Origin: Plicaturopsis crispa FD-325 SS-3
Taxonomy: Eukaryota; Basidiomycota; Agaricomycetes; Amylocorticiales; Amylocorticiaceae
Reading direction: 5' to 3'
DNA length: 64,000 nucleotides
Assembly (NCBI GenBank): GCA_000827205.1
Contig: KN832555.1
Location: forward strand, 311,015 to 375,014
Made by a program: the position numbers and the translations under genes. The notes under the pieces were generated by a model. That model worked only from the letters and a program-made list of their open reading frames with translations, was not told where the DNA came from and made no database searches. Positions 33,655 to 55,198 of the stretch are shown here, in pieces; the stretch's first letter is position 1, and each line of letters begins with the position of its first letter.

Positions 33655-33882
33655 AATGCGAACCTCAGGTGAAATCGGCGTTTTCGTAGACATTTTGCTG
33701 CCCGTGTATAACACATCTTTCTGGGATGACGCACTGCATCTGAGCGGACTGAACATACCAAGGCAGAATTAGATTATCGTTGTTAACTAAAGAAGGAAGA
33801 AGAGTATCTAAATGGGCCTCTATCAGTCATCTTTGAGGTGCATGCAATGTGTTGTCGATAGGCAGTAAAGGAGGGCTTTCCC

Positions 33883-35701
33883 TCATTCCGCTTGTGCAAG
33901 TGCACCCAGTGTGCGCTTCAGAGTAGCAAACTTTGTTTCTACCGCTACGCGTGCGTTGTTTGCAACTTCGAGCGACGTGGACACTGCGAAGACAGACGTT
34001 CGAAATTGACACAAAAGCTGAATGAAGAGGATGGACGCACAGCGCAGTCTCTCGTCCACGGCAGCGTTGAGCAGTGTACCCAGCTCGCGAATAGCTTCAT
34101 CCCGCTCACGAATGGCTTCGGATAGTCGACGGGCTCCGGCCTCTCGAGCTCTCTCAGCCTCGTCGCGCTCGCGCTCAGCGGCCTTCTGCGCCTCGCGGGC
34201 AGCTTGGAGCGATTCGAGGATGATGCGGACTGCGGGGTAACAAATATGAGCATGTGAGGCCACTACAGTAGGTAGCAGATGCTTACTGTGATCTGCTAGG
34301 ATGTACTGGGAAGAGTTATCTGAGTCCTCAGATGTTTTCGCATCAAGGAAAATGTCCACATCTTCAGTTTTTACCTCCGACTTGATGTTAGTGGACAAGG
34401 GTACGTGTTCTTCTTCCTCTAAGTTTGCGGTATCGCTGCCCGCGCATGATCCTACGAGGTTGGGCTTCAGGTATGTTCAACTCAGGGAAGATGCAGCGAT
34501 ACTTACTGTATAAGCTCTCCAACTCTGATTCGGTTTTCTGCTTCTTAGACGAAGTACTTGCGTGCAGCTCGGAGGACGAGTCGGGAAGCTTCCGTTTTGC
34601 ATTGTCAAGATGCATGATTTCTGCGAAGGCGGCGCTGAGCAATGAATGATACTTACTTATAGGCAACGGCAAGCTCAGTGTCCTACCTTTTTTGACGGAC
34701 TCAATTTGAGATATTGCCGTGAGCTCCGAGTCGGTACCTGCTGTGCCGCATTTCGAAGAGTCGCCGACAAGCTTGGAAAGCCACTCAAATACAGCAGGTG
34801 AGAATGTTGCACCCGTTGCAGCATCTCTCAGGACAGCCTGTTCGACCTGGACTTTTCCTGAACAAAGTCAGTATGTTCATCCTCTGGATCTGATAGGCAA
34901 CCCATACCTCCGTTCTCTTTCGAGAGAAAGATAGCCGTTTCATCTGGCTTGACAGCATAGAATTCAGCCGGATCATTCATGAGAACGGTGTTATCTGCCC
35001 CGGAGCCTGTCTCGGCCACGAATTCGGGATTCCTGGTGTCATTTGAAGATGGTTCTCGCTCTCCGAGTCTCCAAACAACACGGGCAGAGTCAGTCTCGTG
35101 GAGGGTCTGGCAAATTTTTGGATCAAGTAGATTACCACCAGCGAATGGCTTGCTGCCAAGTCCAAGCTGGCGAACCTACAGTTGTTGCCGCACGTCAGCA
35201 TGCATCCTTTCTGCTGCACTATAGAATTACGCACTAAGCGTCTCTTCTCGCGGTGGGACGCCTGCGAAGACGCGGTCCGCACCTCAGTGCTGGCTTCCCG
35301 CTGAAGGCGGAGGAGGCGTTCAAAGGGTAACTGAAGACTTGGATACATCTTGGAACGCTCCAGGGCTACACTGATCAGTGTCTCCATCTACAGATTGTCA
35401 GACAGTTGTATCGGATAGAATATAGTGTTACTCGCATTCGACACCTTCTGTGTAGCTTTGCCATCGTAGAAGCGGTGAACGTCATCAAGGAGCTGTTGTA
35501 TGCGGGGTGTGGTATCCCGCAAGTCCTCAAGCTGCAGTTCGTCCAGTCTTTGCAGGGTCTCTGGGGCTTGGAGAAATTTCATGACTGCTTGATTTGTTAG
35601 ATACTCGGCAACCTTGACAGTTAGGATAGGATTAGGGACATACGCTCGCCCGTGGCAGCAGCCTTTGCCTGCTTCTTGGCCCGACGACCCACTGGCAGCA
35701 T
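33883..35701 (-). CDS. coiled-coil nuclear-type protein, unrecognised N-terminus
   Basis: About eight exons join in frame. It starts MLPVGRRAKKQAKAAATGEL, continues MKFLQAPETLQRLDELQLED, SVALERSKMYPSLQLPFERL, VRQLGLGSKPFAGGNLLDP, DNTVLMNDPAEFYAVKPDET, TFSPAVFEWLSKLVGDSS, then a basic stretch (AKRKLP, SSKKQK) and an acidic linker with NIKSEVKTEDVD. The C-terminal coiled coil (LESLQAAREAQKAAERERDE, ending VETKFATLKRTLGALAQ) matches the C-termini of 37093-38606, 49227-50758 and 50973-52566. The N-terminal two thirds differ from those genes. I do not know the function. Lysine-rich stretches and psi-K-x-E sites suggest a nuclear, possibly sumoylated protein; that is inference. Confidence 0.65.
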
Positions 35702-35954
35702 GCTTCACTGGCAGGTCTTTCTAGGCAGACAGTCAGTGCACCATGCCAGAATTGGGATGTAAAGACATAGCTGACGAGAAGCAAATGATAGATGTGAGCC
35801 TCGAGGGCTCTCGAGGGCCGGGTCGCGTCCGTCGCGTCGTCGCGTCGTCAACATCCGATAACCGACAGTCTCTTTCGCCGCTGGGAAGTGCGACTAAGAA
35901 GTCCAGTCGTACAACAAGATCATTCGAGCAAGGGAGAGTACCAAGTCTGATACA

Positions 35955-36705
35955 TACTTATGTCTACGCAATACCGGCGGCCCGAATATACACCGCCGCG
36001 ACCAGCAGACCCGCCCCAAAAGCGACGAGCAGCTTCATCTCCTCCGGCACCCTAACGCGGCGCTGCGAAACAGCCACAACCGCCTGCTTTTCATCCTTCA
36101 CCGCCACCTTCCCATCCTTCCCCTCCCGCTCGTCCGACGCCAACCAGCTCTTCCCCCCGCCCTCGAGGCTCGCCGGTGGCGTCAACGGACGATTACCAGC
36201 CAATCTTGGACGCGTGTCCGAGCCTGCAGCATCTGGTCATCGACGCCAAAAGCGGTACGCCCCTCTCCCACCCGCGCATCCAGTGGGTCGACGTCGAGTG
36301 GATGGACGCCGAGGCGAGCCGCGGACCGGAGTCGAGCGATTTCCTCGGGCTCGCGGAGATGCTGAACACAAAGCGCCTGCCGTCCCTGAAGGGCGTGCGC
36401 GTCATAGACCGGCCGCTGCACTTCATCTGCGACCTTCCCCGGATGGTGCCGCCCGACTACATGCTCGGTGAGCACATGGATTTCGAGTGGCGATTCCCTG
36501 GGGTCCACATATGCCACAGGAAGGGCCGCGTGTATCGCGCGGACATGCAGTACCTCGAAGACGAGGAAGATAGCGACTACGAGTACCCATCTGCCGACTC
36601 CTCTGCCGATGACTCCACGGAAGACTCTTCGTCGGACGAGGACGATGACTACTCGACAGACAGTGAGAGCATGGGATCTACGAGGAGCGACTCATGATAG
36701 AATGC
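35955..36705. repeat. two-source chimeric duplication
   Basis: Bases about 35955-36175 copy the 3' end of the pyridoxamine-oxidase-like gene (38968-39215), with small deletions. Bases about 36180-36705 copy the 3' end of the F-box gene (33148-33665) at very high identity. The join lies at GGCGTC/ACGGACGATTACC near 36178-36185. The F-box part keeps an open frame to TDSESMGSTRSDS (36697). The oxidase part keeps, on the minus strand, the membrane tail KLLVAFGAGLLVAAVYIRAA. Confidence 0.9.
36182..36697 (+). pseudogene. 3' fragment of F-box paralog
   Basis: An open frame of about 170 codons begins TDDYQPILDACPSLQHLVID and ends in the acidic tail. It lacks the coiled coil, F-box and first LRR part. 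It is an almost exact copy of the C-terminus of 31857-33654, so the duplication is recent. No promoter or start of its own is evident beyond a chance in-frame codon at the junction. Confidence 0.85.
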
Positions 36706-36734
36706 GAACCTCTGGGGACTTCGTACTCGTGTAA

Positions 36735-37092
36735 GTATTCTGCTGGTGTGTATCATACTACATAGGAAAAAACTAACTAGCTCACGCCGTAATTCTGATT
36801 ATTGAAGAAGATGTACATTCGAATTCTTGAACGGTGTTCATGTAGGAAATGTCTACCTCAGTTATCACCATAGCCAGCTGATGTGTAAATGCACTTTCCA
36901 ACGAGCCCAATAGAATAGACGTTCACGATTTTCGCAAACATTTGCGGCAGCATGCGTAGGGAGTATGGAAATAGTCATACTCGTCGCCTACATGCACTGG
37001 CACGTACTGAAGAAAACAATGGCCCGTCGTCCAGAGACGTAGCTGGTGGGAGGCAGAAGGGGTTTGCTTGAGCCACAAGGACTCAAGGTACG
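36735..37092. other. intergenic
   Basis: No gene seen. AT-rich relative to its surroundings. Confidence 0.35.
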
Positions 37093-38606
37093 TCACTGGG
37101 ACTCTGTGATCGTACGGACCAGGGTGTCCTTTAGTGCAGCATACTTCTCCTTTTCTGCTAAACGAGCGTCCTCTGCAGCCTTAAGCATCGCGGAAACTGC
37201 AGAGATATTAGGTAGTTGGCGAGTGTCACCGAAATCGCACGAAGATAGCGGACGCACGGTGGGTATTCTCGTCCTGAGACGCTCTGAGCAGCGTCTCGAG
37301 CTTGCGGATCGTTTCGTCCCGTTCGTCGCGCTCGCGTTCAGCCGCCATCTGCGCCTTGCGGGCATCGTGAAGCGACTCGAGAACGGTTCCGACTGAGGGG
37401 GTAAGGCAAGTTTGAGCATGCAATCAATACCCTATATCAAGAAAAAACGTGTACTATGCTCCGCCAGGACGTGCCCAGATGGGCTGTGTTGCGCGTCCGC
37501 AGACGGACCTGCGCCGTCCCACAAAGTGATATCCACATCTTCGTTCTTCTGCTCAGACTTGATATTGGCAGATGCGGAGGTCGAATTTTGCTCGGTGGCA
37601 TCATCGGAGATTTCATGATTGCATTCCGCGGGGTGCACTGAGTCCTGCGCGTTAATGGTAGAAGTGCGCACAGGGGACTGCTCGGCATTTGCGTCATGGC
37701 TGCCCTCAGACTGGGATGAACCTAGGGGCGCCTTCTCAGTTTCCCCATGCCAGAGGGAGAGCAAGGATGCATGAGTTACCGGGTTCAGTCTCCTCCGCTA
37801 TTTTTCGCTTTTTGAGGGGCGGACCAGATTGGGAATGTAAGTCTGACTCTGGTAGCTTCCGTATAATGGCGGAGAATTTTTTGATCCCTTGTATAAAGGA
37901 TGAATAACTATTGGCAGACCAATGAATATATCTGACCTTTTTTGACCCACGAGTTTCTCGATATCGCGATATGCTCGGTGATCAGCCACGCCTTCCGTGG
38001 TACATCGCACCGTGCTTGAACACCCCACACAAGTTGGCCAGTGGGATAGATCCAAAGAAGCACGTTGTCAATGAGGGGGTGTCGAGTCGTAGCGGGGTCG
38101 GCACGTCTGCGGCTCCCATAATACCCATCTTCCTTTGGCTGCCAATGGTGGTACCGACTCCATTGAGCGAGATCACGGTAGTACAAGCAGTACCGCCTTG
38201 GATTCAGATCGACGTATATATCCCCGGGATACCCAATATCATCCGGCGGGGGGCCCCGCCCGTGCATCTCGAAGTAGTGCACAGTGGCCGACCCGCGAGA
38301 AGGCTGTGATTTACGACGTTTGCCCCACGGTGGTGGCTCACTCAGGAAGGGTACGATGGGCCTATACGGGTACCCTTCTGGCGGCCAAGATGCTGGATCT
38401 TGGCCATCGCCGAAACCGAGCCGGAATGTCTTCAGCTTGACCTTGATGTTTGGCTGGATTTTCGAGGTCGGTTTGGGGTTGTCAAGCCATGGTAGCGGGC
38501 GCTGATCAGCGGTATTGCTCTTTGCCTGGGCAGGCCGCAACAAATTGATTCTTTGGAATGTACGTTTCCGAACAGGACCACTGGATGCCCGGTTTGGCGG
38601 TGACAT
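37093..38606 (-). CDS. YPGDIY-domain coiled-coil protein, member 1
   Basis: First of three genes sharing an N-terminal domain I do not recognise. Start at the ATG giving MSPPNRASSGPVRKRTFQRI. Domain blocks: RPLPWLDNPKPTSKIQPNIK, WPPEGYPYRPIVPFL, VHYFEMHGRGPPPDDIGYPG, DIYVDLNPRRYCLYYRDLAQ, TRHPLIDNVLLWI. An intron with donor GTCAGA follows, at the same place as GTCAGT in the paralogs. The next exon carries a nuclear-localisation-like GPPLKKRKIAEE, then an acidic linker (NIKSEQKNEDVDI). A coiled coil (LESLHDARKAQMAAERERDE) and a final exon (VSAMLKAAEDARLAEKEKYA ... TITESQ) close the protein. Function unknown; a nuclear scaffold or regulator is a guess from layout only. About five exons. Confidence 0.75.
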
Positions 38607-38981
38607 GGCTTGCGAGAGGAGATGGCGACTGCGCCCCAATCCATAGGCGCCGGCGTGCGCCGCGAGTCTGTTCGATGATCGCACGTATTGGCGGCTCAAT
38701 TAATCACCGTATTGAACGATATCAATGAAAGACATCCAATACATACATGGGTACCCAGGACGAGTAAACGGGATAACACCAAGTTCAAGACTTCAAATTC
38801 GTCGCGTTGTCGCCTGGCGCTGATGGGCCGAGCTTCCAAAAGTAACAACCGTCAACAAACGGTGGCTGTACCTCAGGCTTGCCTCGTGGTCAGAGTGATA
38901 ACCGAAGAAAACAAAATAAGTACAACCGTAGCATGATTGAGGAAGCAAAAATACTCAGTGATACTTGAGTGATACGTATAC
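38607..38981. other. intergenic
   Basis: About 375 bp upstream of member 1 and downstream of the oxidase-like gene. It should hold the member 1 promoter. No gene seen. Confidence 0.35.
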
Positions 38982-39965
38982 CTACGCGATGCCAGCAATT
39001 CGAATATACACAGCCGCGACCAGCAGACCCGCCCCAAAAGCGACGAGCAGCTTCACCTCCTCCGGCACCCCAGTGCGCTTCAAAACAGCCACAGCCGCCG
39101 GCTTTCCATCCTTCACAGTCTGCACCCCGCCCTTCACTGTCTGCTTCCCATCCTTCCCCTCCCGCTTGTCCGCCGCCAGCCAGCTCTTCCCCCCGCCCTC
39201 GAGGCTCGCCGGCGGCGTCTCCACCGCGTGCCCCTGCAGCATACCAGGCAAGCCGTCGAGGCTCGTCGTGTTCTCCTTCGCCCAGTACGCCTTGAGCCCG
39301 TCCACCGCAATCCCGCCCGCCGCAGCCACGTCGCGCGCCTCGAGCTTCGACATCCAGTTCACGAGCGAGACACGGTGCGCTTTGAACTCGTACCGCGGGA
39401 TCGCGTACCCGCACGACTGCCATCAAGGTTAGTATTTTTTATGGTATTGATGGAGGATTGAGGTGGAGATGGAGAGGGGACGCACGGAGCCGACTTTGTA
39501 CACGTCTACGACGATGGCGCTGCGTGTGCCGGGCTTCCGCGCCGCCGCGGGCACGAGCGCGTTATACTCGGGTGAGCCGTACTCGTGCACCGTCCCTGTG
39601 CATGTGAGCGGCGCACACATACGACAAGTGAGTGGCGCGCATCATATAGTGCATATAGACGGCAGACGCGGTGGCGCACCTCTTCCGAAGAGCCGCACGA
39701 TGCGCGGGGGGGCATCGAAGGCCTGAAACATGATCGTGATGCGCGCGTTCTCGCGCAGGTGCGCGATCGTCTCCGCACCGCTTCCTGTGAGGTCCTCGTA
39801 CCACACACGGCGCGTGTCGACGACGTGGAACGTGCCCGGGAGGCTCTTAGGCGAGACGTTCACGTGCCCGTCCGCCTTGAGCGGCGCTGAGGCGACCCAG
39901 AAGAGCTTTTGCTCGCGGATCCAGGGGATGAGTTCGCTGGGGATTTCGGTGGAGAAGGCGCCCAT
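38982..39965 (-). CDS. pyridoxamine 5'-phosphate oxidase-like FMN-binding protein with C-terminal membrane anchor
   Basis: Three exons. The N-terminal split-barrel flavin-binding fold begins MGAFSTEIPSELIPWIREQK, then FWVASAPLKADGHVNVSPKS, VWYEDLTGSGAETIAHLREN, RITIMFQAFDAPPRIVRLFG. The second exon carries GTVHEYGSPEYNALVP and ARKPGTRSAIVVDVYKVGS. The third begins SCGYAIPRYEFKAHR and has a linker with the Lys-rich KREGKDGKQTVKGGVQTVKD. A C-terminal hydrophobic segment, KLLVAFGAGLLVAAVYIRIA, looks like a tail anchor. The catalytic role is unproven; fungal members of this family are mostly uncharacterised. Its last ~220 bp are duplicated at 35955-36175. Confidence 0.85.
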
Positions 39966-40700
39966 GGTGGTTGGTGGTCGCGGTATAAGTACAGAGAGTG
40001 GGATGGGTACGGTACTAAGTATCTGCACGAAGATGAGTATGTAAGTAGGATGTCGGTCCGACAAGGTGCGTGACGCCATGGCGGAGTCAAGAGCACCTTC
40101 ATCAGCTGCTGCGACCTTCCTTCATCATTGCGACATTGGCGCAAAGTGCGCTGAGAAACGATAAATGACAAGTACTTTGTAGGTCCCTGTTGGTCCCGCG
40201 ACGAAAGCGCGAACGAACAAGCGGCAGGTAGCATACACCGTAATAAGGGCAGAACATAAGACGTGCCAATCCGTATCATAAGTAAGAGGAATGGGTGAGG
40301 GAGCGCGAGTGTGCACTGCGCGAGGATATGCAGCACATGTACATATGCGATGATGTCCGATACTGTGACACGGCAATCTTCTCCCGCCGTCTACGTCGCG
40401 TAGGTAGCATGCCCGGCTTGAAGCACAGCCAGACATTCCTCGAGAACCGTGTCGGCGTCGAAACTTTCCAGCGGATAGAGAGGACGAGCACACAGAGGGA
40501 GAAGGCGCGTGCCATGGAAGATGCGCGCTAGATCAATCATCAACTTGAAGCGCGAGGGGCGTGCAGCATGTCGCCGTGCGGTGGCCCATCCACGGCTCCA
40601 GTGAACGACATGCGACGTAGTCCGATACTGGCTTGAAGCACGGCCAGATATAAGAGGGACAGCGGGCGGGACAGCGGGCGAGACTTCAGTCCATACGGCG

Positions 40701-40740
40701 TGCAGGCACTCGAATCGTCGTGCAGGCACTCGAATCGTCA
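40701..40740. repeat. 20-bp tandem repeat (2 units)
   Basis: TGCAGGCACTCGAATCGTC(G/A) occurs twice in direct succession. A 12-bp repeat, GGGACAGCGGGC, is doubled just upstream near 40656-40680. Confidence 0.85.
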
Positions 40741-41723
40741 TCGCCAGCTAAGTCGGAGAACGATAGATACACAAGCCGCGGGAGGCGTAGTGTCCCTTCG
40801 TGTCGTACCGGTACGTGCGCCTGTGTGTTGCGACAGATACGAAGGAGAGGGGACGAATGCTTCTCTCTGCTGTATCTCGCTGCGAGGAGGATACAGTGCG
40901 CGAGGAGGAGCCTCTACAGTGCACGATGTAGTGCGCCGTGCATTGTGGAGCCAAGGTCCAAGTAGCAGAAGGGAGCTGTCGAGCAACGTAGCAATATACG
41001 CCACCCGTGACCGTACCTGCCATGCGGATCGCCCGAATGATCCAAGGATATCGCCCCGTGACCCCACTACATATCGTACTCCGACCGGGTAGCTGGACCG
41101 CTCCTGGTGTTGAATTGGCCTCTCGTGTAGCAGTGTTGAGATGGTATCCAGGGAAGAGGGCGTCGGCTGGTGTTGGAAAGGCGGTTGGAGGTGTTGGAAG
41201 GGACATGATTGAATTGACTGGGGAGCGCAATTTACGTGCCGTCGAAGATGGGCACGCCCGTGCGTCGCGGGCTTGCGCAATTCAGATCTCTGGGCTTATA
41301 CAGTTCAAACCTGTCGCCCCTGCACAATTCAAACCACGGGGCCCGTATAATTCAACCCTCCCGGATCCTACGCGGTACACACCGCGAGAGTACGCCGGAG
41401 ATGCACTGCAAACGTACAAACAATATACACAGCGAACCCACACACAGTATACGCCGCGCGCGTACATGCGCCGTACGCCGCGAGAAGTGAGGACCATTGA
41501 GACAGGATGTGAACAGAGGCCGTCGAGAGCGGTGGGCGTGGGCGGTAGTGAACAGAGAGTATCAGCGTCGTAGTGTAGTGAGCATCAGCGGTAGCGAACA
41601 GAAACCATCGTCCGTAGGGAGGCGTCCGTGAGGAGTAGAGTGTATCAGCCATCGCAGTGCAGTCAGCGCTGGCCCTTGAGAACGCGAGAACAGTACCCAT
41701 CGGCCGTCGTCAACTGGCGTATC

Positions 41724-41773
41724 GGCCGACAGGCGTAAGCTCTATGTAGGCCGACAGGCGTAGGCTCTACGTA
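41724..41773. repeat. 25-bp tandem repeat (2 units)
   Basis: GGCCGACAGGCGTA(A/G)GCTCT followed by A(T/C)GTA occurs twice, head to tail. Confidence 0.85.
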
Positions 41774-42240
41774 GGTCGCCGGTTCCCCCAAGAGGTAGCG
41801 CCAAGTGGTCTCCCGGGAGTGGTTTGAGTGCTGCAGAACTGCAGAAGGTTAGATGCTGGAGCAGATTGAGTGCTGTCCTTGGTGCTGAAGATGGTTTGAT
41901 GCTGTAAAAGCTTGAGGGCTGAACAAGCTTGAGTAATTACTAGAGAGGGAAGATTGAGTGCTGGAGAGAAGTAAGGGTCCGTGATGGAGGGGATCGCCCA
42001 GAAGATGGAATGAAGCATGAAGGAACGGGAATGAAGTGCGGGGTGTGGGGAGGTGGGGTAATCGCATACTAGAACGAGAAGGAGGACCAGCAGCCGGGGC
42101 GAGGTCAAGCAGCCGGTGTCATGACGAGCAGTTGCCTGGATGAACTGTGCAAGCAATTCATCCCATACCGGGTGCAGCTGCTCCCACGCCAGTAGACGGA
42201 ACGCAGAGCATACGCAGACGGAACGCAACCTGCACCACGG

Positions 42241-42522
42241 CACGATGACACTCACACGAATTCCGACACGGTTGTCAACGATGTCGGAACGAAGGCCAAG
42301 GATGCCGACATTGCCGTCAACGATGTGGACACGAATGTCAACGATGCCAACGCGAAGGGCAACAAGGTCGACACGAAGGTCAACAAGGTCGACACGAAGG
42401 TCAACGAGGTCAACACGAACGTCCACGATGCCGACACGGCTAGCAACGATGTGGACACCAAGGTCGACAAGAATGCCAATGATGTCAACACGAAGGTCGA
42501 AGATGTGGACGCGGCGTCCTAG
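42241..42522 (+). repeat. degenerate 21-bp minisatellite encoding heptads
   Basis: Roughly a dozen units related to GTCAACGATGTGGACACGAAG. In one plus-strand frame (to 42522) they read as heptads such as VNDVDTN, VNKVDTK and VNEVNTN, with hydrophobic residues at repeating a/d-like positions. The central units (42361-42410) are nearly identical. Antisense it reads as VDLVDLR-type repeats. I cannot say which strand, if either, is translated. Confidence 0.8.
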
Positions 42523-44210
42523 AAGGCTGACACGGTTGTCAATGTCAATACCGGACAACATGGAGCACGCACGAAGTTCGAACAAGTAGGCGGAACGGAT
42601 CAGAACAAGACAGCGGATCAGAAGGTAGACGCGCACGATGACGAGACAGACAAGCGCGTTTAGGCCAATGGGTGTGTGTGCGCGACTGGCCGACGAAGGT
42701 GCACGGAGGATGCTCGACGCACGTGTGCAGGCTGGACAAACACGCAACGATACTGCACGACGCGTAGGCGCGACGTCGGCGAATGATATGGGGCAAACAC
42801 ACAGTACCAGTGCCAGTGCTCCTTCGCATCGAAGCGTGGCGGGAGTGCTGGGGAATATCAGTGGGTCGACACGAAGTCGTACGTCTCCGAGCGATGCATG
42901 AGCAACCAGTCGGCGGATAATAAAAGAGCAACTATATGCCGGACGAAGAATGGGCAAGGAGTCGGCGGCGGATAATGAATGATCAATAAGTCGCCGTGCA
43001 GCATCGTGTATATGAATGGGAAACGGAGGGCTTATCTGTGCTCCGCCAGAGCGTCGAGGATGATGTTCTCCCGCCGCAAGCGAAGCGGAGGAGACGGGAA
43101 GGCCGCGGGTGAGCGCATAGTGCAAAAGGAGGAAAGAAAGGCGAAACGATGACGAGTGGAGGCAAAGAACAAGGAAAGAACGCTAGTAGGTCCAGAAGGA
43201 AAGTACGATAGCGAGCGTAACAGACAGACGCGCCAACGAAAAGCATCCTGCCTCAGCTTGAAGCATCGACGCTCCAGCGTGAGGCAGATAAAAGGACAGA
43301 CGTACGAGTACAAGGGACAGATATCTGATACGCTGGTGCATAGGACCACTAGAGCCGTACCATCGCTCCAGACCTGTGCATGTGCAAGGAACTAGGGACC
43401 TAGCACGGCCAGACGAGACTGTCTTGGCCATTGACGAGGCCCTTGGGAAGGTGAACATGCTCCCATGGATCCAGGGAAACCGATGAGCTCACACGAAAGG
43501 CAAGATCACCTCGCCCACCTGGGAAACAGCCAAGGTTCGTTGGAAATGAACTCGAACAAGAGCAAGGGAAGCTCTAGATTTTAGGGTTGCCCCAATGGCG
43601 CCGAGAGTGGGGATTGTCATCGAGAACACGGACAAGAACGGGAAAGGGATGATGGAAAGACAGAACGTAGAAGGCAGAGCACGATGGACGGGTGGGACGG
43701 GCGTACGGGGGTTGCTGCAAACAGCAGTCCATGACGCAAGGGTCGACAGGCGCAGAGAATGATTCAGACGTGGGAGGTGGCCGTACGCGTTATCGAGTCC
43801 AGTCTAGAGCGCAAAGACGAAAGGGCGGGCGCACGGGGGCTGCTTGAACAGGCCGTCATAGCGCAGGCCACGCCACAAGCCCGGTCAACGCTGCGCCCAA
43901 CGACGAGCTCGCTAACCCCTAAAGCGGGCGTAGAATAGAGTTATCGTGGAGCCGGACTCAATAGCACGCGACCTTACCTCCTTCTTTTCATTCTCGCTGA
44001 TAAGCAAAACGAACCATCGACAACAGACTCTTTCACCCGCTCTGCTCTTTGTCGTTGGTCCCCCCCTGCGTTCGTTCCCTAGGTAAGTGCTGTGTCCAAG
44101 TCGCTGGCTAGGACGGGCATTGATCCCGGGGGGTGTAGACGCAACGCTATACGGCTGGTCCATTCATCAATCCGACCAATTTTTGGGGAGGTAATCGTAT
44201 CGTATTGGCC

Positions 44211-47200
44211 ATGCCCTACGCCGTCCCCGCGCACCACCGTTCCCGCTCCTTCGACGCACGCCCCACGGGCCCTGGAGCGTTCTCCTCCCTCGGCCACCTC
44301 CCCCGCCGCAAATCCTCCTCAGGCTCCTCCGCTGCCCCATCATCGTCCTCCTCCTCGTCGCACGCATCACCGCAATCGAATTACGGCACATACCCATCCT
44401 CGCCCTCCCCACACTCGCCATACGTCCTCCCGCGACTCAAGCTGCGCAAACCCATCTTCACGCTCGACGATGACGAGGACGAGGACGAGGGCTCGAATAT
44501 CATCCTCGAGGACGACGACTGCGATGACGAGCGCGCTGTGCCATTCCCCCGCGCCTCCCCTTTATCTCCACCACCCGTATCCGCCGCACCGCCCGTGCGT
44601 TTCCCCACCCTCTCCTCCTCCCGCCCTTCCCGGCCCTCCTTCCAGCGCGCAGACTCCCCCCTACGACCGACATTGCCGAGAACGGAGTCGACGCCCTCTC
44701 CGCGCCTCCCCTCAGCACCGACGCGCACTAGCTCGTCGCTGTCGTTGAGCAATGGGAAGCCGATATACTTGTCGAATGGGAAGCCGCTCAAGTCGTCGTT
44801 GAAGAGTAGTAGTAGCACGCCGGCGCTCGCCGACTTACCCTCCTCCTCCTCCCATCCTTCCTCCTCCTATACCTCCAATACCTCGAATACGGACGCTGGT
44901 CCCAATACCACTGCGTCTAGTCCTGGTGAAGTAGGTGGTGTAGGAAAGGGCAGTGGACAGGAACACCGCCGCGCCATCCACCTGCGCGTCCAATCCGCCC
45001 CCTCCACGCCCTCCGCGCGCCCCAAGAGCGTGCACTTCGCAGAGAAAGACCGTGGCCTCGAGGACGTGCGCGTCTTTCGGCGCGGGGCTGTGCCCGCTAG
45101 CGTCGGCTCTCTCGCTAATGGGGGAGGCGCTCATAACGGTGAGGGAGGGGCGAGTGATAACGAGGGTACGAGCGGAGGGGAGAGTGGTGGCGAGGGAGGG
45201 GGAAGTGGGGGAGGGGAGGATACGGATGCGGATGAGGAGAGGTTCCCGTTCCCGCGTATGCCTGCTAAAGAGGTGAGGGTGAACGAGGAGAGGTATGTTA
45301 TAGATGCAACGGCATCGTCGCCCGTCCCCGCTGCGCCGCGCAGCTGGGAGGGGGTGAATGTTTTGTTGGAGCGGGTGTGGCTTGCGTCTCCCCATAACGA
45401 GGGTAGAAGCGAGCATGACGAGGAAAGTGAAGCGCCCTTACTGCACGGAACCATTCTCGTACGCAACCTCGCATTCGCCAAATCCGTCGCAGTGCGCTTC
45501 ACAGCCGACGCGTGGCACACCACCTCAGAGGTCGGCGCGCGCTGGGAGGCCTCTCTCCCCTCTTTGCCCCTTCCCCTTTTGTACGGTCACCACCGTTCCC
45601 TTACTATGGGCGACCTCGTCCTTCCTCACAATAGCACAGGAGGAGGGAATGGGAGAATAGAGGGAGGAGGAGGAGAATGGGACCGCTTCGCCTTCCGCCT
45701 CCCCCCCTCTGCGCCCTCCACCGTCCGCCTCGCCGTGCGCTTCCTCGCGCCCGAGGTGGGAGGGGAGTGGTGGGATAATAATGGGGGGAGGGATTATGTT
45801 GTTGCTTTTAGACGCGATCTTGGTAGTGGGGAGAGGGTGGAGGGGGTGAAGGGGAGGAGAGAGGTGGTTGTTAGCGCGCCGGCTGGTACGTCCCCCTTTT
45901 CCTCTATACATGCTAGAAGAGAGGATACTGATGTGTGGGGGTAGCACCGCGCACGCGCGTGGAACAACCGCTCCCGCTGCCTCTTCCGCTGCCGCGCCTG
46001 AGGGGGGTGGCGGCACCTGTCGTGTCGCCTGTCGTGTCGCCGGGTGTGGTGTCCTCACCGCCAGTCGCGGTGTACTCAGCGGGTGGGTTGGCGTCGCCAT
46101 CCATCCTGTCGCCACCTGTCCTGTCGACACCAGCTGCAGTATTCTCGCCAGCTACGGTAGCGGCGTCGTTGCCGACGCCTGCAGCGGAACTACCGACACC
46201 TGCAGCAGAAATGCCGACTCCGGCCACGACGTCGTCCTTGCCAGTGCCTGCGCCGATCCTCTCGCCTACGACAAACCTTGCCGCGCCTCCGACGTCAACG
46301 TCTGCACCCGCGACGACAACGACGAAACCACCCTCACCCACGTTGTCGAAGTTGTCCTTCGCGCCGGGCCACTACGTCCCGCCCAGTGTGCCCTCGCGCG
46401 CGCCTGTGCCTGCTGTGTTGCGTGCATCGCCATCGGGTACATTGTCGAAAGACACGACGACGGGGAAGGACGTGGCGTCGAGCTCCTCCGCGCTCATCAC
46501 ACCGCCCGCAACGCCAGAGGAACGACGATCCACTGCATCACCCACTTCCACCATGCATCGCGCCGCGTCGCCAGAAGCAGTCATATCGCCCGCCGCACGT
46601 GCCGAAATATCGCCCGCTGCGCAAGCCGTGCTATCCCCGACAGTCGCGCGCCCCGCACTGCCGACGTTCACCAGCTCGATCTTGCCCGCGTCGACGAGCG
46701 CGAGCGTCGTGGTGCCCACGTCGACGCCCCCGTCTGCTGTCTTGCATACGCCCACATCGCATGCACACGCATCGCACGCACACGCGACGCACGCACACGC
46801 GCATGCACGCGGGATGGCGCTTCATTGGCCGTGGGGCGCGTCGTCTTCGCCGCCTGTGTCGTCGCCGCGGACTGAGTCGCCATCGCCGCGCGTGGACTCG
46901 TCTTATGCACCCGCAAATCGCGTTGACTCGCCCTCGAACGTGTCGTCCTCGCCATCGCCCGTGTACACATCCCCAACGCCGGCGCCCTCGCCCAGCCTCA
47001 ACGCACCCTCGCCGCCATCCACTACCACTACCACGCCTGCCGACGCGTCGCCCAATTCTACCCCTGCCGATGCGTCGCCCAACCTCGACGCGCACGCGCC
47101 GAACCTGGACGCCCTCTCGAACGTACCCTCCCCGGGCCTCAACGTACCCTCACCGGGCCTCAACGTACCCTCGCCGGGCCCTAATGCAAACCCGCAGAGC

Positions 47201-47299
47201 CTGGACACGGACAGCCTGTACCAGGCGTTCGTGCGGCAGTGGTGCTTCGCGCAGAGCCCGGCGCCGCTCGGGCCGACGGCGGGGGTGTTGGTTGGGTGA
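44211..47299 (+). CDS. protein phosphatase 1 glycogen-targeting subunit with CBM21 domain
   Basis: Exons 44211-45885 and 45945-47299 give about 1009 aa. The N-terminal third is Ser/Pro-rich with LPRLKLRKPIFTLDDDEDED. A PP1-docking RVxF-type motif is in RPKSVHFAEKDRGLEDVRVF (KSVHF). The CBM21 carbohydrate-binding domain follows: VLLERVWLA, LHGTILVRNLAFAKSVAVRF, DAWHTTSEVGARWEAS, WDRFAFRLP, and WWDNNGGRDYVVAF. The second half is very Ser/Pro/Thr/Ala-rich and ends in the conserved SLYQAFVRQWCFAQSPAPLG. This architecture matches the fungal GAC1/PIG1/PIG2 regulators that bring PP1 to glycogen synthase. Start at the first ATG in frame (the frame opens six bases earlier without ATG). A His/Ala-rich stretch from ACGC repeats lies near 46760-46810. 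Confidence 0.9.
47120..47182. repeat. 21-bp tandem repeat in the PP1 regulator (3 units)
   Basis: Units AACGTACCCTCNCCGGGCCT(C) encode NVPSPGL three times near the C-terminus. The unit length keeps the frame. Confidence 0.9.
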
Positions 47300-49226
47300 G
47301 CTCGCGACGTGCGCGTTGGGTGAATTTCCGCAGACCTAACACGGCTGCGCGAGGAGGCAGAGAAAGGGTATAGAGGAGGTATATAGAGGAAGTAGAAGTA
47401 GAGAGAAGTGGACTTTCACATATCGTTATCCCGTTCCGTTCTCTCGTTATCCCGTTTTCTTTGGTCTTGGTCGTTCTTGGTTGCATCCCCCCACCGGCTT
47501 TTTCTTGTTTCTTGTTTTATGTTTTTTTTTCTTGGGTTCACGCACTCACATCCACCCCGACTCATATACATATCCCTTTCCCCCCACCCCCGACTCGTAA
47601 CGACAGCGCGCACGGACACTCAACAACGATAGATATTGTATGCGCCGCGGACGTTTCCCCTCTCCATCTCATCTTTCCCTTTCCCTTTCGCTTGCTTGCT
47701 TTTCCTCTCTTTTTCGTTTTGCACGCGCGCATATACCGACGGACGTTCGCGCACCACCACACAAAAGGCCGCCCCGCCACTGCTGGCCAAATCTACACCA
47801 TCCCCACACCAGGCGCCGTCGCCCAAAACCAAAAACCCCAACACAAAACTCAAACACAAAAAATGACACAACTCGGAATATCATTATCGCCCCCCTCCGC
47901 CCTCTCCCGAGCCATATACACGCCGGCCTGTACAACAACAACAGGTTACAGTTACAGCGCCCATAAACGCCTCCGCCCTCCTTTCCCTGTACCACCACCA
48001 TCACCGCCTTCATACCGCCGGATTTATTGCTGGCGCGCCCATACCGTGCTCGCCCGCTGCTCCTATCGCGACCCTATACCGCGCTGCTCATCCATCGCGG
48101 GCTCTCGCTAGCCCCTCTCGTTCCTCACTCAACAACGACATCGACATCATGCATCCATTCATCTGTGTACCACCATCATCAATTAAGCTCACCGACCAGG
48201 CTCGTTCGCTCGCTTCGCTTTTCACTGTCTCCCGTCATCCCTATCGCCCGCGCCGTTTAAGCGGTTGTGTGGCGTCATTTACCGTCACCCGTGCGCGTCG
48301 TTTACCGTCACCCGTGCGCGTCGTTTACCGTCGCCCGTGCGCCGACATTCACATTCGCCCGTGTGGCGTCGTTTCCAATCACCCGTGCTACATAGATCTG
48401 TCATGCCATTTGGTCAATTAGTGTCCTCTTTCTCTTACATACTTATCGTGGGCTGCGCATGCACGGAATACATTGGGTTATCTTGATGAATTTTCGGGTC
48501 GCATTTGTGAAGATACAGTGAGCGTCTGTTGAAAAGGTCAAGAACAGATTCCCGAGACGCTGTCTCAATCTTACGCCCCCAGTGGCAAGCCCTGTATCTG
48601 TTAGCTACTTGCTTGTGGGTGGCATTGACGGGCTCACGTAGCATTTTCGCCGTGGGACCTACAGGGACCTACAGGCAGTAGCACAAGGACTGGCACTCAG
48701 TACTCAGGTTGAAAAACAAATAAGCTGGACGAGTTTAGGGGAGAAGGTGCAAGTCGTGAGATGGCGCTGACGAACAACGAAATCAAATTGAGTACCGCAA
48801 CAGACAAGATATCCAACACCAGCATCTGTCGTGGTTCTAGCAGCTCCCAGGCTCAGGCGCTCAGCTAGCTTGAGAGTCGTCAGTCGTATTCCTCGTCTTC
48901 GTCAAAGATCTAGTAAAGTACTAGGTATATCGAAAAGGTGCGCACAAGGCAAGTATGAGCGTTTGGGATTCTGCCACGTGCGCCGTGCGGACCCCGCGGC
49001 GCACGTAGTTGCCGTTTACAAGATGGACTCGAAATTTCTTTCTAGTAAGTACTAGTACTACTACGATCACACCGCTGAGCGCTCAGACTTCCAGCGCTGT
49101 CCCATAGCCAAAATCTCAGTCTCCAGCTGCGACACGACATACGTACGCCTGGGTATCTGCCAACGTCGACACCGTCCGACATCGTACCACGGTCGCAGTC
49201 TCGCAGTCGCGACCTGACTCGGAGTC
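47300..49226. other. gene-poor 1.9-kb region
   Basis: Pyrimidine-rich 47.4-48.1 kb, with frames open only because of low complexity. No domain found on either strand. The last few hundred bases should include the promoter of the following coiled-coil gene. Confidence 0.45.
48272..48388. repeat. 23-bp tandem repeat (about 5 units)
   Basis: Three close units of GCGTCGTTTACCGTCACCCG plus TGC (48272-48340), then two diverged units. Intergenic. Confidence 0.85.
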
Positions 49227-50758
49227 ATGGCCAAAGCCACTACGGGGAACGATCTGCCATTACCTTGGATCGACAACCCCATCCCATCCTCCAAAATCCA
49301 GCCAGACGTTAAAATTCAGCTGCGGACGCGAGACATATTGTTTGGCCCCGGGTATAAGCGGGATGTATGGCCGCCAGTAGGGTATCCATACCGGCCTATT
49401 ATCGTGACTACATACTCCTCCAGCAGTGGGCCCGACATTGTTTTAAAGTCACCTTATGGCACCTTACACTACTTCGAGATCCTTGGCCAGGGTGACCCTC
49501 CGTCTGATATTGGTTATCCCGGGGATTTATACGTAGATCTAACCCCGAGAAAACACCGCATACATTACCGAGACCGGACGCGGTGGAGACGATACTCTCC
49601 GCCAACCCTCGCGGAGGAGCCCAGGGCCGATGGACGCGTCGGCTGGATTCCAACGTATGTCAAGGTCACAGCTACTTGTACTCGGCATCCGTTCGCCGAC
49701 GAGTTCTGTGTCTGGATTGACAGAGAGGGTATAGGGTGGTCGGAGAGCAACAATTGGTCACTGCTGGAGACTTTATGGCGTCAGCGATTCAATGCCCGTC
49801 GGGTAACCGACGAGCACGCTGCGCTGACGCGTGTCCGAGATCTCCAAGATGGTCAGTCGATGTGTTCGCAAGTCATCATTCGTCGCTCATCAGTATATAC
49901 GTACACAACCCGTCTCAGACTACGCAAATAGGAAAAGAGACCTTGCATTGGATTCAGCCTCGGCGGCACAGTCAAGTACACCCTTCAAAAAGCGGAAAAT
50001 CACCCTAGACAGCGACGAAAGTGAGCGTTCTTCCTTTCATCTGAGGGGAGCCGCTTACGCGATCTTACAGGCTCATCCGAGGACGGCGATGGCGCGAGTT
50101 CTACGCAGAACGACGAGGATGCCTCTGTAGACGCGCCCGAGCCTGACGCTGCACCAGAGGAAACTCATCATGATATCCTCGACGATAACAACGAGGAAGA
50201 AAGTGCGCCACCATCTACCGATATCACATCCGAACAGAAGCCCGAAGTATGCATGGATAAAAAGCCCACCAATATGGGCGCAGCTGCAGACACGGTGATC
50301 TCGTCTGAAGACATCCTCGTGGAACACAGTGCGTTTTGTTCGTCTGCGTGCATATGTTTCACGTTCATGTTTTTTTCCTCCCATCCCAGTCAGCAATGTT
50401 CTCGGCTCGCTCAAAGCTGCCCGCGAGGCGCAGAAGGCAGCTGTGCGCGAGCGCGACGAGGCCAAGAGCGCGCGAGAGGCGGAGGCGCGTCGTCTATCTG
50501 ACGCCGTCCGTGAGCGGGATGAAATTACGCGCGAACGGGACAAAGCCATCCGCAAACTCGAGACGCAGCTCAAAGCCTCTGAGGACGAGAAAACGCGTCG
50601 TGCGCCCATTCTTCCCTGTTATTTTTCCAACACTCATCAAATGTGTCTTCGCAGTCTCCGCGTCACTTAAGATCGCAGACAAGGCTCGTTTAGCGGCGGA
50701 GAAGAAGTATGCTGCACTAAAGGACACACTGGCTGGTGTACTTGCTGCGTCCGAGTGA
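49227..50758 (+). CDS. YPGDIY-domain coiled-coil protein, member 2
   Basis: Exons 49227-49851, 49919-50020, 50071-50328, 50390-about 50599 and a last exon ending 50758. The unknown N-terminal domain reads LPLPWIDNPIPSSKIQPDVK, WPPVGYPYRPIIV, LHYFEILGQGDPPSDIGYPG, DLYVDLTPRKHRIHYRDRTR, TRHPFADEFCVWIDREGIGW. The second exon carries the basic TPFKKRKITLDSDES. A long acidic exon follows (DEDASVDAPEPDAAPEET), then the coiled coil (VLGSLKAAREAQKAAVRERD) and a closing exon (ASLKIADKARLAAEKKYAAL). Intron positions match member 3, so the two are a tandem pair, about 215 bp apart. Function unknown. Confidence 0.8.
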
Positions 50759-50972
50759 GGTGGCGTCGTGTAAGAAGTGCGCTTATCTGTCTACACTGAG
50801 CACTGAAGCCTGCTCCCAAAATCGATGCGTTTCAGGCCTAAACGACTGTGATAAGTCCGCGGGTTTCCCGCGGAACGAAAACTTCGGCCAAAATTGAAAT
50901 GGTGCCTTGGACTCTCACCACCTGCTGTGACTGTAAATACCCCCTTTTCCGCTGCCACCTCCCAAGCTGCCT

Positions 50973-52566
50973 ATGTCTGACTCATCTGGACCCCACTCGG
51001 AAAGCGACTCGGATACACCGCAGCCCAATGCGGTGAACATGGCAACACTGACGCTGCCCTGGCTCGACGCCCCTAAACCAACCTCGAAAGACGGTCGACA
51101 GGAGTTCAAGATCAAACTGAAGCAGTGCCCGCATATCTATATCGGCGAGGGGCAGCTGCGACAAACCTGGCCACCAGCAGACTATCCGTATCGGCCCTAC
51201 GTTGTGACTTCGCGCGCCGTCACCTGTGCGATCACTCTTCCACTGAAAAAGCCCTATGCTATCTTGCACTACTTTGAGATCCTTGGCCAGGGCGACCCTC
51301 CGCATGACATCGGCTATCCTGGGGATATATACGTGGATCTGACCCCGAGAAAGTATCGCTTACATTACCGCGACCGGACGCAGTGGAGACGCTACTCTTC
51401 GCCAACCCTCATGGAATCACTTTCGTCCGACGGTCGTGGCTACATTCCTCCGCAGTTTTTCAAGAAAATCGGAGATGGCACTCGGCATCCGTTTGTCCAG
51501 GAGCTGATTCTCTGGATCGACAAAGACGGTGTAGGGTGGACGAAGAACGACGACGAGTTGATGCTACAAACTCTATATAATCGACCATGGATGTCGCGTG
51601 GACCCACAGAGCATGCTGCGCTGGCGCGTATCCGGCATATTCAAGAAGGTCAGTCGATGCATTCGCGAGTCACCGTTCACCGTTCATCATTCCGTGCATG
51701 CACAGCCGTCGCAGACTTCAAAAATAGCAAGAGACCCCTCGCTTTGGACTCGGCTCCGGCAGAACAATCAAAAACACCCTCCAAAAAGCGGAGGATCGTC
51801 CTGGACAGCGACGAAAGTGAGTAATTTTCCTTCAAATGTGGTAGGATTTGCTGACACGATCTCACAGGCTCATCCGAGGACGGCGATGACACAAATTCTG
51901 TGCAGGACGACGAGGATGCCTCTGTGGACGCGCCCGAGCCTGAGGTTGTACCAGAGGAAACCAATTTCGATATCCTTGACGATAAAGAAAATAGCGCATC
52001 GCCATCTACCGATGACACATCCGAACAGAAGCCCGAAGTATGCACGGAGCAAAAGCCCCTTAATGCGAGTGCAGCTGTAGACACGAGCGTCCCCTCTGAG
52101 GACAACCTAGTGGAACACAGTGCGCTTGTTTTTCTTTGCGTGCATATGCTTCACATTCATATATTTCTCCACTCCCATCTAGTCGGCAACGTTCTCGGAT
52201 CGCTCAAGGCCGCACGCGAGGCACAGAAGGCGGCTGAGCATGAACGGGATGAAACTAAGGGCTCGCTCGAAGCGGCTGTTTCCCAGCAGTCCGCGGCCAT
52301 CCGCGAACGGGACGACGCTCGGCGAGGACGGGATGAACGTGATAAAACTATCAGCGAGCTGCAGACTTCGCTCAAGTTTGCCGAGGATGAAAACGCGCGA
52401 GGTAAGTTCACTGTTTTCGCTTTCTTTGCGTCTTTCATCTCGAGCATCTGTCGTCCCACTCCCAGTTGCCGCAGCGCTTCGACTTTCCGACCAGGCGAAT
52501 CTAATGAGGGCGGAGAAGCGTTCCAAACTCAAAGAGGCATTGCTTGCGCTAGCACAGAGTCTTTAG
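50973..52566 (+). CDS. YPGDIY-domain coiled-coil protein, member 3
   Basis: Tandem partner of member 2. It starts MSDSSGPHSESDSDTPQPNA, then LPWLDAPKPTSKDGRQEFKI, WPPADYPYRPYVV, LHYFEILGQGDPPHDIGYPG, DIYVDLTPRKYRLHYRDRTQ, TRHPFVQELILWIDKDGVGW. The first intron splits a codon after HIQE (GTCAGT donor), then FKNSKRPLALDS, TPSKKRRIVLDSDES (basic, nuclear-type), an acidic exon (DEDASVDAPEPEVVPEET), the coiled coil (VLGSLKAAREAQKAAEHERD ... RGRDERDKTISELQTSL) and a last exon ending LALAQSL. All parts are in frame, so it looks functional. Function unknown. Confidence 0.8.
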
Positions 52567-52917
52567 GTTCTCTGTTCGGGCTTGTCCAGGATATACACAC
52601 AGGGCCGGCTTTCGTAACGGCCACTTTTCATCACTTCCCCCGGCGCGGTAGTCTTTCCATGTATGTGATTCATTTCTGTCTTATTGCTAGTAGAATCCTA
52701 CGGGTTGTTCAAACGTTCGGGGCGCTTAATCATTGAAGGAGGCGTTATAAGCACTTAAGCGTTTAGTACGTTTAGTAGCAAGACACGTCCGAAACACGCT
52801 ACAGCCCCAGGGAGTCTTCCCCTTCGAAAACCTCGTCGTCCCAAGACTCGCCGCCCATCAAGTACTCATCTTAGTACGAGATTCCGACAAAGGTAGATAC
52901 TGTCCGTCCTGAGAAGA
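52567..52917. other. convergent intergenic region
   Basis: About 350 bp between the stops of member 3 (+) and the F-box copy (-). No gene seen. Confidence 0.4.
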
Positions 52918-54509
52918 TTAATGGGAGTCCGACTCGGTTCCACTGGCTCTATCCTCTCCGTCATAGTACTCCATGTCCGCACGGTACAGACGGCCCTGTC
53001 TGTGGCGTACGTGAACTCCAGGAAATCTCCACTCGAAGTCCGCGTCCTTGTCCAGCATGTAATGAGGAGCAACGAGTCTGGCAAGCTCGGCAACAGCATG
53101 CAGCGCTGGGTCTACGGTCCGTACGCCCTTCAAAGACGGCAAGTCGAACTCGGTGACAAACTGCGCGACGAAACGACAATCCGGACTGAACGGCGACTCC
53201 AAGTCGATCCACTGGATCTTTGGGTGCGTGAGGGGGATGGAGAATGATGGGTTGATAAATAGATGCCTCACGTTGGGGCATACATCCAAGATTGGCTGGT
53301 AGAATGACCACCGGCATCTCGGAGTCGTGGGATAACCAAGCATACGGATGGAGATGTAAACAATGTTTTGGCCGTGAGCTTGGCAAAATGCAACGATCGA
53401 AGGGCGGAGGGCTATGAGCCTATCAGTGGACGGATCCGCGCGACTAGTCATGGCAAATATTTTCAGGCATGGCAGCGACCAGTGTGTGGTGATGCACTGG
53501 AGTGTAGATTCCTTCCACAACCATTCAATGTGAAGGTTTTCCAGTCGATCCAATCGAACAGCAGGTGTTTCATCTGGGGCAGTGGGGGGAAGCACAAGGG
53601 AGAACGATACCAGAGTTTTGCTGACAGCCTGCAGTCCGATGGCGAGTGGCAAGGCCCACTGAACTGTTGCATTCGAAATGTGTGAGGCTCGAGCTGGAGC
53701 AGTGGGTCCAGAGACGGGTAAACAGTAAATCTGGCGTCTCATAATCGTCGAAGTGAGGATTCCATGTGAGCTCGGTGATTTGTGGGCAGCCGCTGAATAT
53801 TCGCGCCAAGTCGCCCTCGAGATCGGCTACGAGATCGCTGTTCAAGAAGCAAGCCACGGAAACCTTTCGAACGGATGACCGACAGTCGAACATCGATGTG
53901 TCGAGGGTGTGCACGAATGCTGGAATCTGTTCCGGACGACGAAACACAACCTCTTTGTAGAGTATGTCCATTGCGGTGCCCCACCATGATTTGCAGACAA
54001 GGGCAAGCGACTTCTTAGTTCGCAAGGTCAAGCACCACGGCGACTCGGGACCACCGCACAGGCTGGGATCGACGAACTGAGATGGGGGAATGGCATAGGT
54101 GAAGATCATATGGAGTATTTCGTTCGGCAGGCGTATGTGGGCCTGGTAAACGCTCTCCTACAAGGTATGAGTGATCATTGGTTTCGATTTTGCACGACAG
54201 AGCCACTGGAAGAATCATGTAGGACTACCTACCTGGTGCATGCTGGTATGGTCGTTGGATCCCTCGGGCAGTGCGCGTATATCCTGGGTGGATTTTTGTA
54301 CAAGTTCTTCGTTCCTCGCGACAAGCTCTTTGCTCTCCGCGACTGGCCTTTCGTTCGATATTGTTAGTTTCCGAACGACCTCATCTATATTTCCGTGTAG
54401 ATGCAAGGATGCGCGTAGGCCAAGCTACGATGAAAGGGTCAAATCAGTAGCAGATTCACGGGATAGAATCTTTCAGCCATACTTGCTCTGATTCTGAGTT
54501 AGAGTCCAT
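52918..54509 (-). pseudogene. F-box-like paralog with one frameshift
   Basis: Same layout as 31857-33654: short first exon MDSNSESEQ (54509-54483), coiled-coil exon (GLRASLHLHGNIDEVVRKL, ARNEELVQK), then RLPNEILHMIFTYAIPPSQF, GGPESPWCLTLRTKKSLALV, SWWGTAMDILYKEVVFRRPE. The reading continues to SLTHFECNSSVGLA, after which the frame shifts by one base near 53655-53672 and resumes PLAIGLQAVSKTLVSFSLVL, LDRLENLHIEWLW, VRHLFINPSFSIPLTHPKIQ, FEWRFPGVHVRHRQGRLYRA to the stop at 52918. The intact paralog has no intron there. So this is either a young pseudogene or a sequence error; otherwise complete. Confidence 0.75.
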
Positions 54510-55198
54510 TGTGTTGGCAGCGCCCCCTTGCAGTGGCTCTGGTATGTTACGATCTCTATTCATCGACCCTTTTTCGTTCCAATGTGCGCTGCATATCACT
54601 GTCAGTACCTCGCGGGAGGAAAGGTTTGGGTGTTATTGGGACTCACAAGGATGAACTGAGTCAAACGCGTGGAACGAGTTTTCATTGAGGTGCAGCAACA
54701 ACCATGCGATGGTCAACCGCGAACCACGCCGTTGAGTCGTGGGCCTGCGCCACGTGTGCTGTGATATCACCGTATCGGGGGTTTCCTTGGGGCTGCCTAC
54801 AGAATGGAGGTACGACGGTACTTGTTGGTGTCCGTCTATGGCTAGGAGACACTAAGGCTTTCCCAGGTTTTGCTCCGGTCCAGGTTGAAGCCTTGAAAAG
54901 AGGCTGTATTCGATCTGTATTAGTATTGATACGCGGAACATGCAAAATGCTGGCACACCAGCACATATATAATCGATTGCAAGACCAGACGCCGTCCCGA
55001 AAACCGCTCTCCCTGCCCGCTATCCCAGCTCGAGAGATCCAGGCGGTTGAGCATTGCACCGTCCATCGAAAGATGCCTTGTCCATTGGATAGTACTGTGT
55101 CCGTCGAATACTCCTCTCCATCCGAGGCTAACGTCTGATTGCAGGAGGGCGCGAAGCATGAATGCAGAGTGTCTTAACAGCAAATACAGCAACGTGTC
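54510..55198. other. intergenic
   Basis: A 144-codon plus-strand frame (54704-55138) has no motif and overlaps an antisense frame. I do not count it as a gene. Confidence 0.4.

Follow-up and report, generated by a model that had tools for sequence, protein, structure and literature searches.

A mosaic array of coiled-coil genes with and without a YPGDIY domain, with F-box neighbors, in Plicaturopsis crispa

What kind of gene family persists as an array of unequal copies in a short region of the genome of Plicaturopsis crispa FD-325 SS-3? The question is raised by a 64-kb stretch of contig KN832555.1 (positions 311,015 to 375,014; 55% G+C), referred to here as the window, in whose own numbering all positions are given. 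An initial annotation recognized in it three paralogs, here called genes A, B, and C. That reading is supported in part: A, B, and C are paralogs, but the count was incomplete, as the window also holds a fourth gene (D) and a frameshifted relict, and neither these nor the mosaic structure of the copies, the tandem duplication around D and A, or the F-box neighbors were part of the description. Our tentative explanation, which we hold to be possible, though short of probable, is that the locus is an array with fast turnover whose proteins are oligomeric and probably nuclear and combine a fixed linker and coil with a changeable N-terminal recognition module.

Gene models built from the DNA sequence with GT-AG splicing, together with alignment, place the three genes where they had been annotated. 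Gene A (38606-37093, minus strand; 412 amino acids [aa]) has exons at 38606-37937, 37842-37780, 37721-37455, 37392-37258, and 37196-37093; gene B (49227-50758, plus strand; 432 aa) has exons at 49227-49851, 49919-50020, 50071-50328, 50390-50599, and 50655-50758; and gene C (50973-52566, plus strand; 449 aa), the tandem neighbor of B, has exons at 50973-51648, 51715-51816, 51868-52119, 52183-52401, and 52466-52566. The matching intron positions reported earlier are confirmed, as each gene has five exons and four introns, all of phase 1 and at equivalent places. Similarity in tblastn is far beyond chance for B and C (E values of 1.9e-130 and 4.5e-99) and for the pairs with A (1.4e-28 to 1.9e-48). 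B and C lie head to tail with 214 bp between them, and their introns have 49/66, 36/49, 49/60, and 35/55 identical aligned bases against shuffled means of 0.54 to 0.58 (the fourth, at 0.64, is near its shuffled mean of 0.58). This similarity indicates that B and C are a fairly old, still recognizable tandem duplication.

The N-terminal domains of B and A are 51% and 40% identical to that of C, and 64 of the 240 columns in the three-way alignment are strictly invariant, DIGYPGD among them. The strongest block reads HYFE(I/M).G.G.PP.DIGYPGD(I/L)YVDL.PR...YRD...W.RY, and the domain core, defined by alignment, occupies 51252-51593 (plus strand) in C (HYFEI.G.G.PP.DIGYPGDIYVDL...W..Y...TRHP...LWI...W), 49452-49784 in B, and 38291-37992 in A. 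The shared domain is real, but its blocks had been called invariant, which slightly overstates the case: B has LPWIDNPIPSSK, C has WPPADYPYRP, and A has HYFEM. In A, the reading frame of the domain is open throughout residues 1 to 223.

Behind the domain, gene A continues with a KKRK patch, an acidic linker, and a short coil. The KKRK-type patch and acidic linker of the initial annotation are present in all three proteins: the patch, of the form KKR(K/R), is PLKKRKI in A, FKKRKI in B, and SKKRRI in C, and the linkers have 18, 27, and 28 acidic residues in A, B, and C, respectively, against 7 basic residues in each. The C-terminal segment is a charged, proline-free helix with a 3.5-residue hydrophobic periodicity, and heptad periodicity of hydrophobicity is significant in all three (P = 0.014 for A, 0.0005 for B, and 0.0065 for C), which agrees with the proposed coiled coil. 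A is the weakest case because its strongest period is 3.03 and not 3.5. The support for the coil consists of these statistics on A, B, and C. Such an architecture could belong to a regulator of chromatin or transcription, in which the N-terminal domain would bind a chromatin partner or DNA while the acidic linker and the coil assemble a complex. The patch, followed by DSDES in B and C, the acidic linker, and the coil are consistent with this role. However, the combination of a basic patch with an acidic linker is common, no Pfam family (E up to 1) or PDB sequence matched, and nothing specific points to chromatin beyond the patch that resembles a nuclear localization signal, so we consider this role unlikely.

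The claim that no named Pfam domain covers the shared region stands at the curated cut-offs. The A, B, and C proteins matched no Pfam family at E values up to 1, and among their cores only the 53-aa core of B matched, to DnaJ_C (PF01556; E = 0.027, 14.9 of 26.6 bits). Against NCBIfam, the three domains yielded only a subthreshold match of B to a DnaJ model (E = 0.19, 10.7 of 338 bits). PHROGs gave no matches for the proteins, the domains, or the cores, and PDB sequence searches with the C domain, a whole-domain profile, and a core profile found nothing at E values up to 10. No transposase, integrase, or virus family was found in A, B, or C in Pfam or PHROGs, and the introns are conserved. The description as an undescribed family therefore holds for the libraries searched (Pfam, NCBIfam, PHROGs, and PDB); fungal proteomes lay outside this scope.

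The matches of B suggest one named alternative, that the domain is distantly related to the peptide-binding C-terminal domain of DnaJ, with which B shares a G.G....G.PGDLYV-like stretch. Both matches are far below their curated cut-offs, A and C have none, and the likeness is confined to one of three paralogs. Furthermore, the Pfam scan of the three proteins showed no J domain, profiles of the domain and of its core matched no PDB sequence of any kind at E values up to 10, and no DnaJ structure is among the best 50 of 107 PDB matches of the core model in Foldseek. We regard this relationship as very improbable.

A structural model was also compared with known folds, as the initial annotation had proposed. 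AlphaFold2, run from the three sequences, gave a mean predicted local distance difference test score (pLDDT) of 36.8 for the whole domain and 58.5 for the core, which is modeled as a small beta-meander, and Foldseek with the core model found nothing at an E value of ≤0.001 in PDB or among viral models. The fold matches below that level are leads only, because the core model is marginal and the whole-domain model failed. They would fit a core that is a trimerizing beta module like those of collagen or phage tails, such that the N terminus and the coil would both assemble the protein. Among the best 50 of 638 matches to viral models (E up to 10), four have a probability of >0.9 (E = 0.036 to 0.13), three of them giant-virus collagen-like or tail-collar proteins and one unnamed; among the best 50 of 107 PDB matches (E up to 10), the collagen XVIII trimerization domain accounts for four of the top seven (E = 1.9 to 4.2). 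The motif type G-PGD-IY-D...LY...W is also known from phage and collagen-like proteins. The resemblance of the modeled meander to these proteins is weak and insignificant, no collagen repeats were seen, and PHROGs gave no match. In addition, tblastn of the 53-aa core against 50,697 phage records returned one record for C (E = 5) and none for A, which is no better than the reversed control (five records; best E = 0.5). We consider a beta module of this kind decidedly unlikely.

Relatives of the domain were sought in bacterial and archaeal, viral, and phage collections. Two patterns gave 38 and 47 matches in 84,980 bacterial and archaeal genomes and 56 and 56 matches in viral contigs, none of which was confirmed. 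A scan with a DNA pattern gave one contig (L001), whose reading frame proved not to encode a relative, and matches in two Serratia phages among the phage records (E = 0.3, covering 32% of the query) were taken as chance. The strings YPGDIY and GD(I/V)Y(I/V)DL are absent from 5.39 million literature texts, although papers rarely print such strings, and among the papers listed on orphan or expanded basidiomycete families, neither the titles nor the openings of the abstracts hinted at this family. Similar GD(I/V)Y-D...LY...W proteins occur in mushrooms, annotated as hypothetical. The family is probably taxon restricted.

Conservation across the diverged copies had been taken to imply selection, and this is borne out by the ratios of nonsynonymous to synonymous divergence (dN/dS; Nei-Gojobori method, with bootstrap samples of infinite dS dropped). 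The figures are rough, given the high synonymous divergence and the swapping of segments between copies. In the core block, where neutral values would have contradicted the claim, dN/dS is 0.10 for B-C (95% bootstrap interval, 0.02 to 0.29) and 0.14 for A-B (0.06 to 0.30), with an infinite dS for A-C. The N-terminal domain as a whole has values of 0.43 (B-C), 0.21 (A-B), and 0.31 (A-C); the linker gives 0.48, 0.48, and 0.56, respectively; and the coil gives 0.21 (B-C) and 0.47 (A-B), again with an infinite dS for A-C. The core is thus under constraint, and the linker is loose. For whole proteins, the values are 0.37 (B-C; 95% bootstrap interval, 0.27 to 0.49), 0.38 (A-B), and 0.32 (A-C). Relaxed values of 0.3 to 0.4 would also be expected if these were ordinary duplicates, specific to the lineage and located where duplication is frequent, under weak constraint and with no role in recognition, with the F-box genes as passengers and ectopic gene conversion as routine; the strong constraint seen in the core needs more than drift.

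Comparison of synonymous codons reveals that the copies do not share a single history along their length. At positions where two copies have the same residue, the fraction of differing codons was contrasted between regions and between pairs by Fisher tests. For A and B, the fraction is 10/52 in the coil and 41/75 in the domain; for B and C, it is 16/80 in the linker, 32/57 in the coil, and 40/100 in the domain; and for A and C, it is 25/39 in the coil. The contrasts have P values of 2e-5 to 9e-5, with 0.006 for the B-C linker against the domain. When D is included in the alignment, the coil differences are 10/52 for A-B, 25/39 for A-C, 34/58 for B-C, 18/43 for A-D, 24/63 for B-D, and 27/47 for C-D. 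The copies are therefore mosaics, with the coil almost common to A and B and the linker to B and C. As the lowest coil difference is that between A and B, these two seem to have swapped the coil most recently, even though B adjoins C. Ectopic gene conversion or a similar process seems to account for this exchange.

Gene D was recognized by its C-terminal half (34620-33883, minus strand), which matches B in tblastn (E = 2.5e-24; match at 34416-33886, minus strand) and aligns with the C-terminal halves of the other three genes. Its four C-terminal exons (34620-34507, 34451-34287, 34229-34041, and 33983-33883) are all open, follow the intron order of A, B, and C, and encode a KKQK patch, a linker, and a coil. 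The region of its N-terminal half (34621-35701, minus strand; gene model uncertain) has no detectable YPGDIY domain: when the core profile was run with frameshifts allowed, none of the top eight places on the minus strand of the window, down to a score of 32.0, lies in D. A stretch in D, NDPAEFYAV, was considered as a counterpart of YPGDIYVD and was dropped on the same result. The first exons of a trial model, which is insecure, encode a differing, helix-looking sequence. Pieces of D matched nothing above cut-off in Pfam at E values up to 0.1 (only RHH_5, with an E value of 0.088 and 13 of 26 bits) or in NCBIfam (only a metal-dependent hydrolase model, with an E value of 0.017 and 14.2 of 567 bits).

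D and A lie in two adjoining repeats found by blastn self-comparison. Unit 1 (33145-36183; 3,039 bp) contains the C-terminal part of an F-box gene (F3), gene D, and a truncated small gene with a membrane-anchor-like end; unit 2 (36182-39219; 3,038 bp) contains an F-box fragment (F4), gene A, and the small gene. The small gene lies upstream of A at 38982-39422 and upstream of D at 35964-36236 (both minus strand) and ends in a hydrophobic LLVAFGAGLLVAAVYIR stretch. At the DNA level, the end of the F-box gene is 92% identical between the units (33145-33672 and 36182-36718), and the small gene is 81% identical (35954-36183 and 38972-39219). The repeats abut at 36182 with an overlap of 2 bp and are thus most simply explained by a single tandem duplication. 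At the junction, the F-box gene and the small gene are each represented by a truncated copy, with the full F-box gene on the outer left and the fuller small gene on the outer right.

Between these flanks, the similarity of the units falls away. In a global alignment read in 100-column windows, identity drops near the F-box stop from 0.95 to 0.69 to 0.51, is 0.48 to 0.77 over the C-terminal exons of the coil genes and 0.32 to 0.57 where the N-terminal halves lie, and recovers to 0.75 to 0.88 at the small gene; three shuffled interiors gave means of 0.40 to 0.41. When aligned separately, the N-terminal halves of D and A are identical in 497 of 1,151 columns (0.432), against 0.392 to 0.429 in 20 shuffles, which is slightly above chance, so that a faint common origin is possible. 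Plain neutral decay of the N-terminal half of D after the duplication was rejected as an explanation, given that the flanks have kept an identity of 81 to 92%, unless those flanks were homogenized later. Either the exchange would have brought together two haplotypes with very different alleles or one of the middles would have been replaced later. A dissimilar middle between alike flanks, found here at a single locus, is the most unusual observation of this study. For the account of ordinary duplicates given above, it is a second feature that needs more than drift.

The frameshift-tolerant scan also detected a relict of the YPGDIY core at 28720-28866 (plus strand; the start is approximate, and 28866 is the scored end). 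Its score of 64.3 exceeds the maxima of 48.3 in 60 shuffled strands and of 42.8 with 60 column-permuted profiles on the real DNA. A plain six-frame search with a hidden Markov model scores it at 7.6, within the shuffled range (10 shuffles, the highest of whose best scores is 9.7). The relict is a fifth, dead copy, which stands out only when frameshifts are allowed. A possible further copy at 12681-12737 (minus strand) scored 37.7, inside the shuffled range, and was dropped. Near the relict, 29417-30097 (minus strand) has a partial homeodomain match (PF00046 positions 40 to 57; E = 5.7e-4, 20.1 of 22.9 bits).

Five F-box-like copies occur in the window, of which two are truncated or internally deleted and one falls into two parts about 1.5 kb apart. 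Searches by tblastn with the F-box open frames placed one at 27907-25147 (minus strand) and an internally deleted one at 30885-31570 (plus strand). F3 (31828-33651, plus strand) is an open frame of 608 aa that lies tail to tail with D and matches PF12937 below cut-off (E = 6.7e-4, 19.8 of 24.3 bits); its translation has a coil-like stretch, seen by eye and unscored, ahead of the F-box. F4 (36161-36718, plus strand), the C-terminal part with 92% identity to the end of F3, lies tail to tail with A. F5 (52813-54514, minus strand) lies tail to tail with C, is above the cut-off for PF12937 (E = 4e-6, 26.9 bits), and matches F3 residues 9 to 316 and 321 to 608 in two frames. One of the five copies, F1, is just under the cut-off (23.7 bits). 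The likeness to F-box proteins belongs to these neighbors, as no F-box match was obtained for the YPGDIY genes. Five F-box copies within one stretch, together with the relict and truncated copies that indicate turnover in both families, would again suit ordinary duplicates without a recognition role. Given the constrained core and the dissimilar halves of D and A, we find that account rather doubtful.

The preferred reading of a fast-turnover array assigns the two ends of the protein different tasks. The fixed C-terminal part would comprise the basic patch as a nuclear targeting signal, a flexible acidic linker, and a coil for self- or cross-association, and the N-terminal module would recognize a partner or ligand. 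The array would persist because the N-terminal module is swapped while the coil stays interchangeable. The tail-to-tail F-box gene may be a functional partner, through SCF-type degradation of, or via, the coil protein, or it may be a passenger of duplication. Genes that are restricted to a taxon and amplified locally are well known as a kind; what is specific here is the constrained core without a Pfam name, the exchangeable N-terminal half, the interchanging coil, and the recurring F-box neighbor.

Several points weigh against this reading. The dN/dS values compare paralogs between which segments have been exchanged, synonymous sites are near saturation in several pairs, and dS is infinite in 2 of 15 comparisons. 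The mosaic regions were picked after the dN/dS values had been seen, and their P values are uncorrected. The identity of 0.432 between the N-terminal halves of D and A exceeds all 20 shuffles (maximum, 0.429), the gene model for the N-terminal half of D is insecure, and part of D may be dead. Only three intact domain sequences are present in the window, and the fold models built from them reach a pLDDT of no more than 36.8 (whole domain) and 58.5 (core). Passive carriage could explain the F-box pairing: the relict has no tail-to-tail F-box gene, C sits between B and F5, and the pairings of D and A derive from one tandem duplication, which leaves at most two independent instances.

Het and idiomorph-like loci combine unlike central sequences within conserved flanks, turnover and segment exchange, and local paralogs. 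The present array resembles them in all three respects at the sequence level and differs in that no Pfam het domain was found in A, B, and C (E up to 1) or in the scanned pieces of D (E up to 0.1). Fungal nonself-recognition loci are described as polymorphic in PMC8229728, which also calls the mechanisms of somatic incompatibility in basidiomycetes completely unknown; for that reason, the comparison has no basidiomycete reference gene. Differing N-terminal halves within conserved duplicated flanks, which bear on polymorphism indirectly, would be a candidate type for such a locus. In a bolder version, which we regard as a long shot, D and A would be a pair of ancient alleles, idiomorph-like in character, of a single basidiomycete recognition gene with high polymorphism, brought side by side by unequal exchange between haplotypes, with a shared coil, an almost wholly different N-terminal module, and the tail-to-tail coiled-coil/F-box gene as an effector partner. 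The region would then be a candidate mushroom nonself-recognition locus.

Elsewhere in the window, an inverted repeat of about 300 bp (486-785 and 25027-24743) is 83% identical between arms separated by about 24 kb, and no element attached to it was identified. An open frame at 42196-42522 (plus strand), which may or may not be coding, consists of VNDVDTKVNKVDTKVN-type repeats, and the DNA itself is repetitive at 42264-42498. Genes for an SMC hinge protein and a TCP-1 chaperonin, the F-box-like genes, the partial homeodomain, and the short GT-AG introns agree with a fungal source. The other genes include those for an SMC hinge protein (4423-5334, plus strand), a PNPOx_N protein (39645-40121, minus strand), a CBM21 protein (44139-45941, plus strand), a lysine methyltransferase (Methyltransf_16; 58164-59459, minus strand), and a TCP-1 chaperonin (61173-61835, minus strand).

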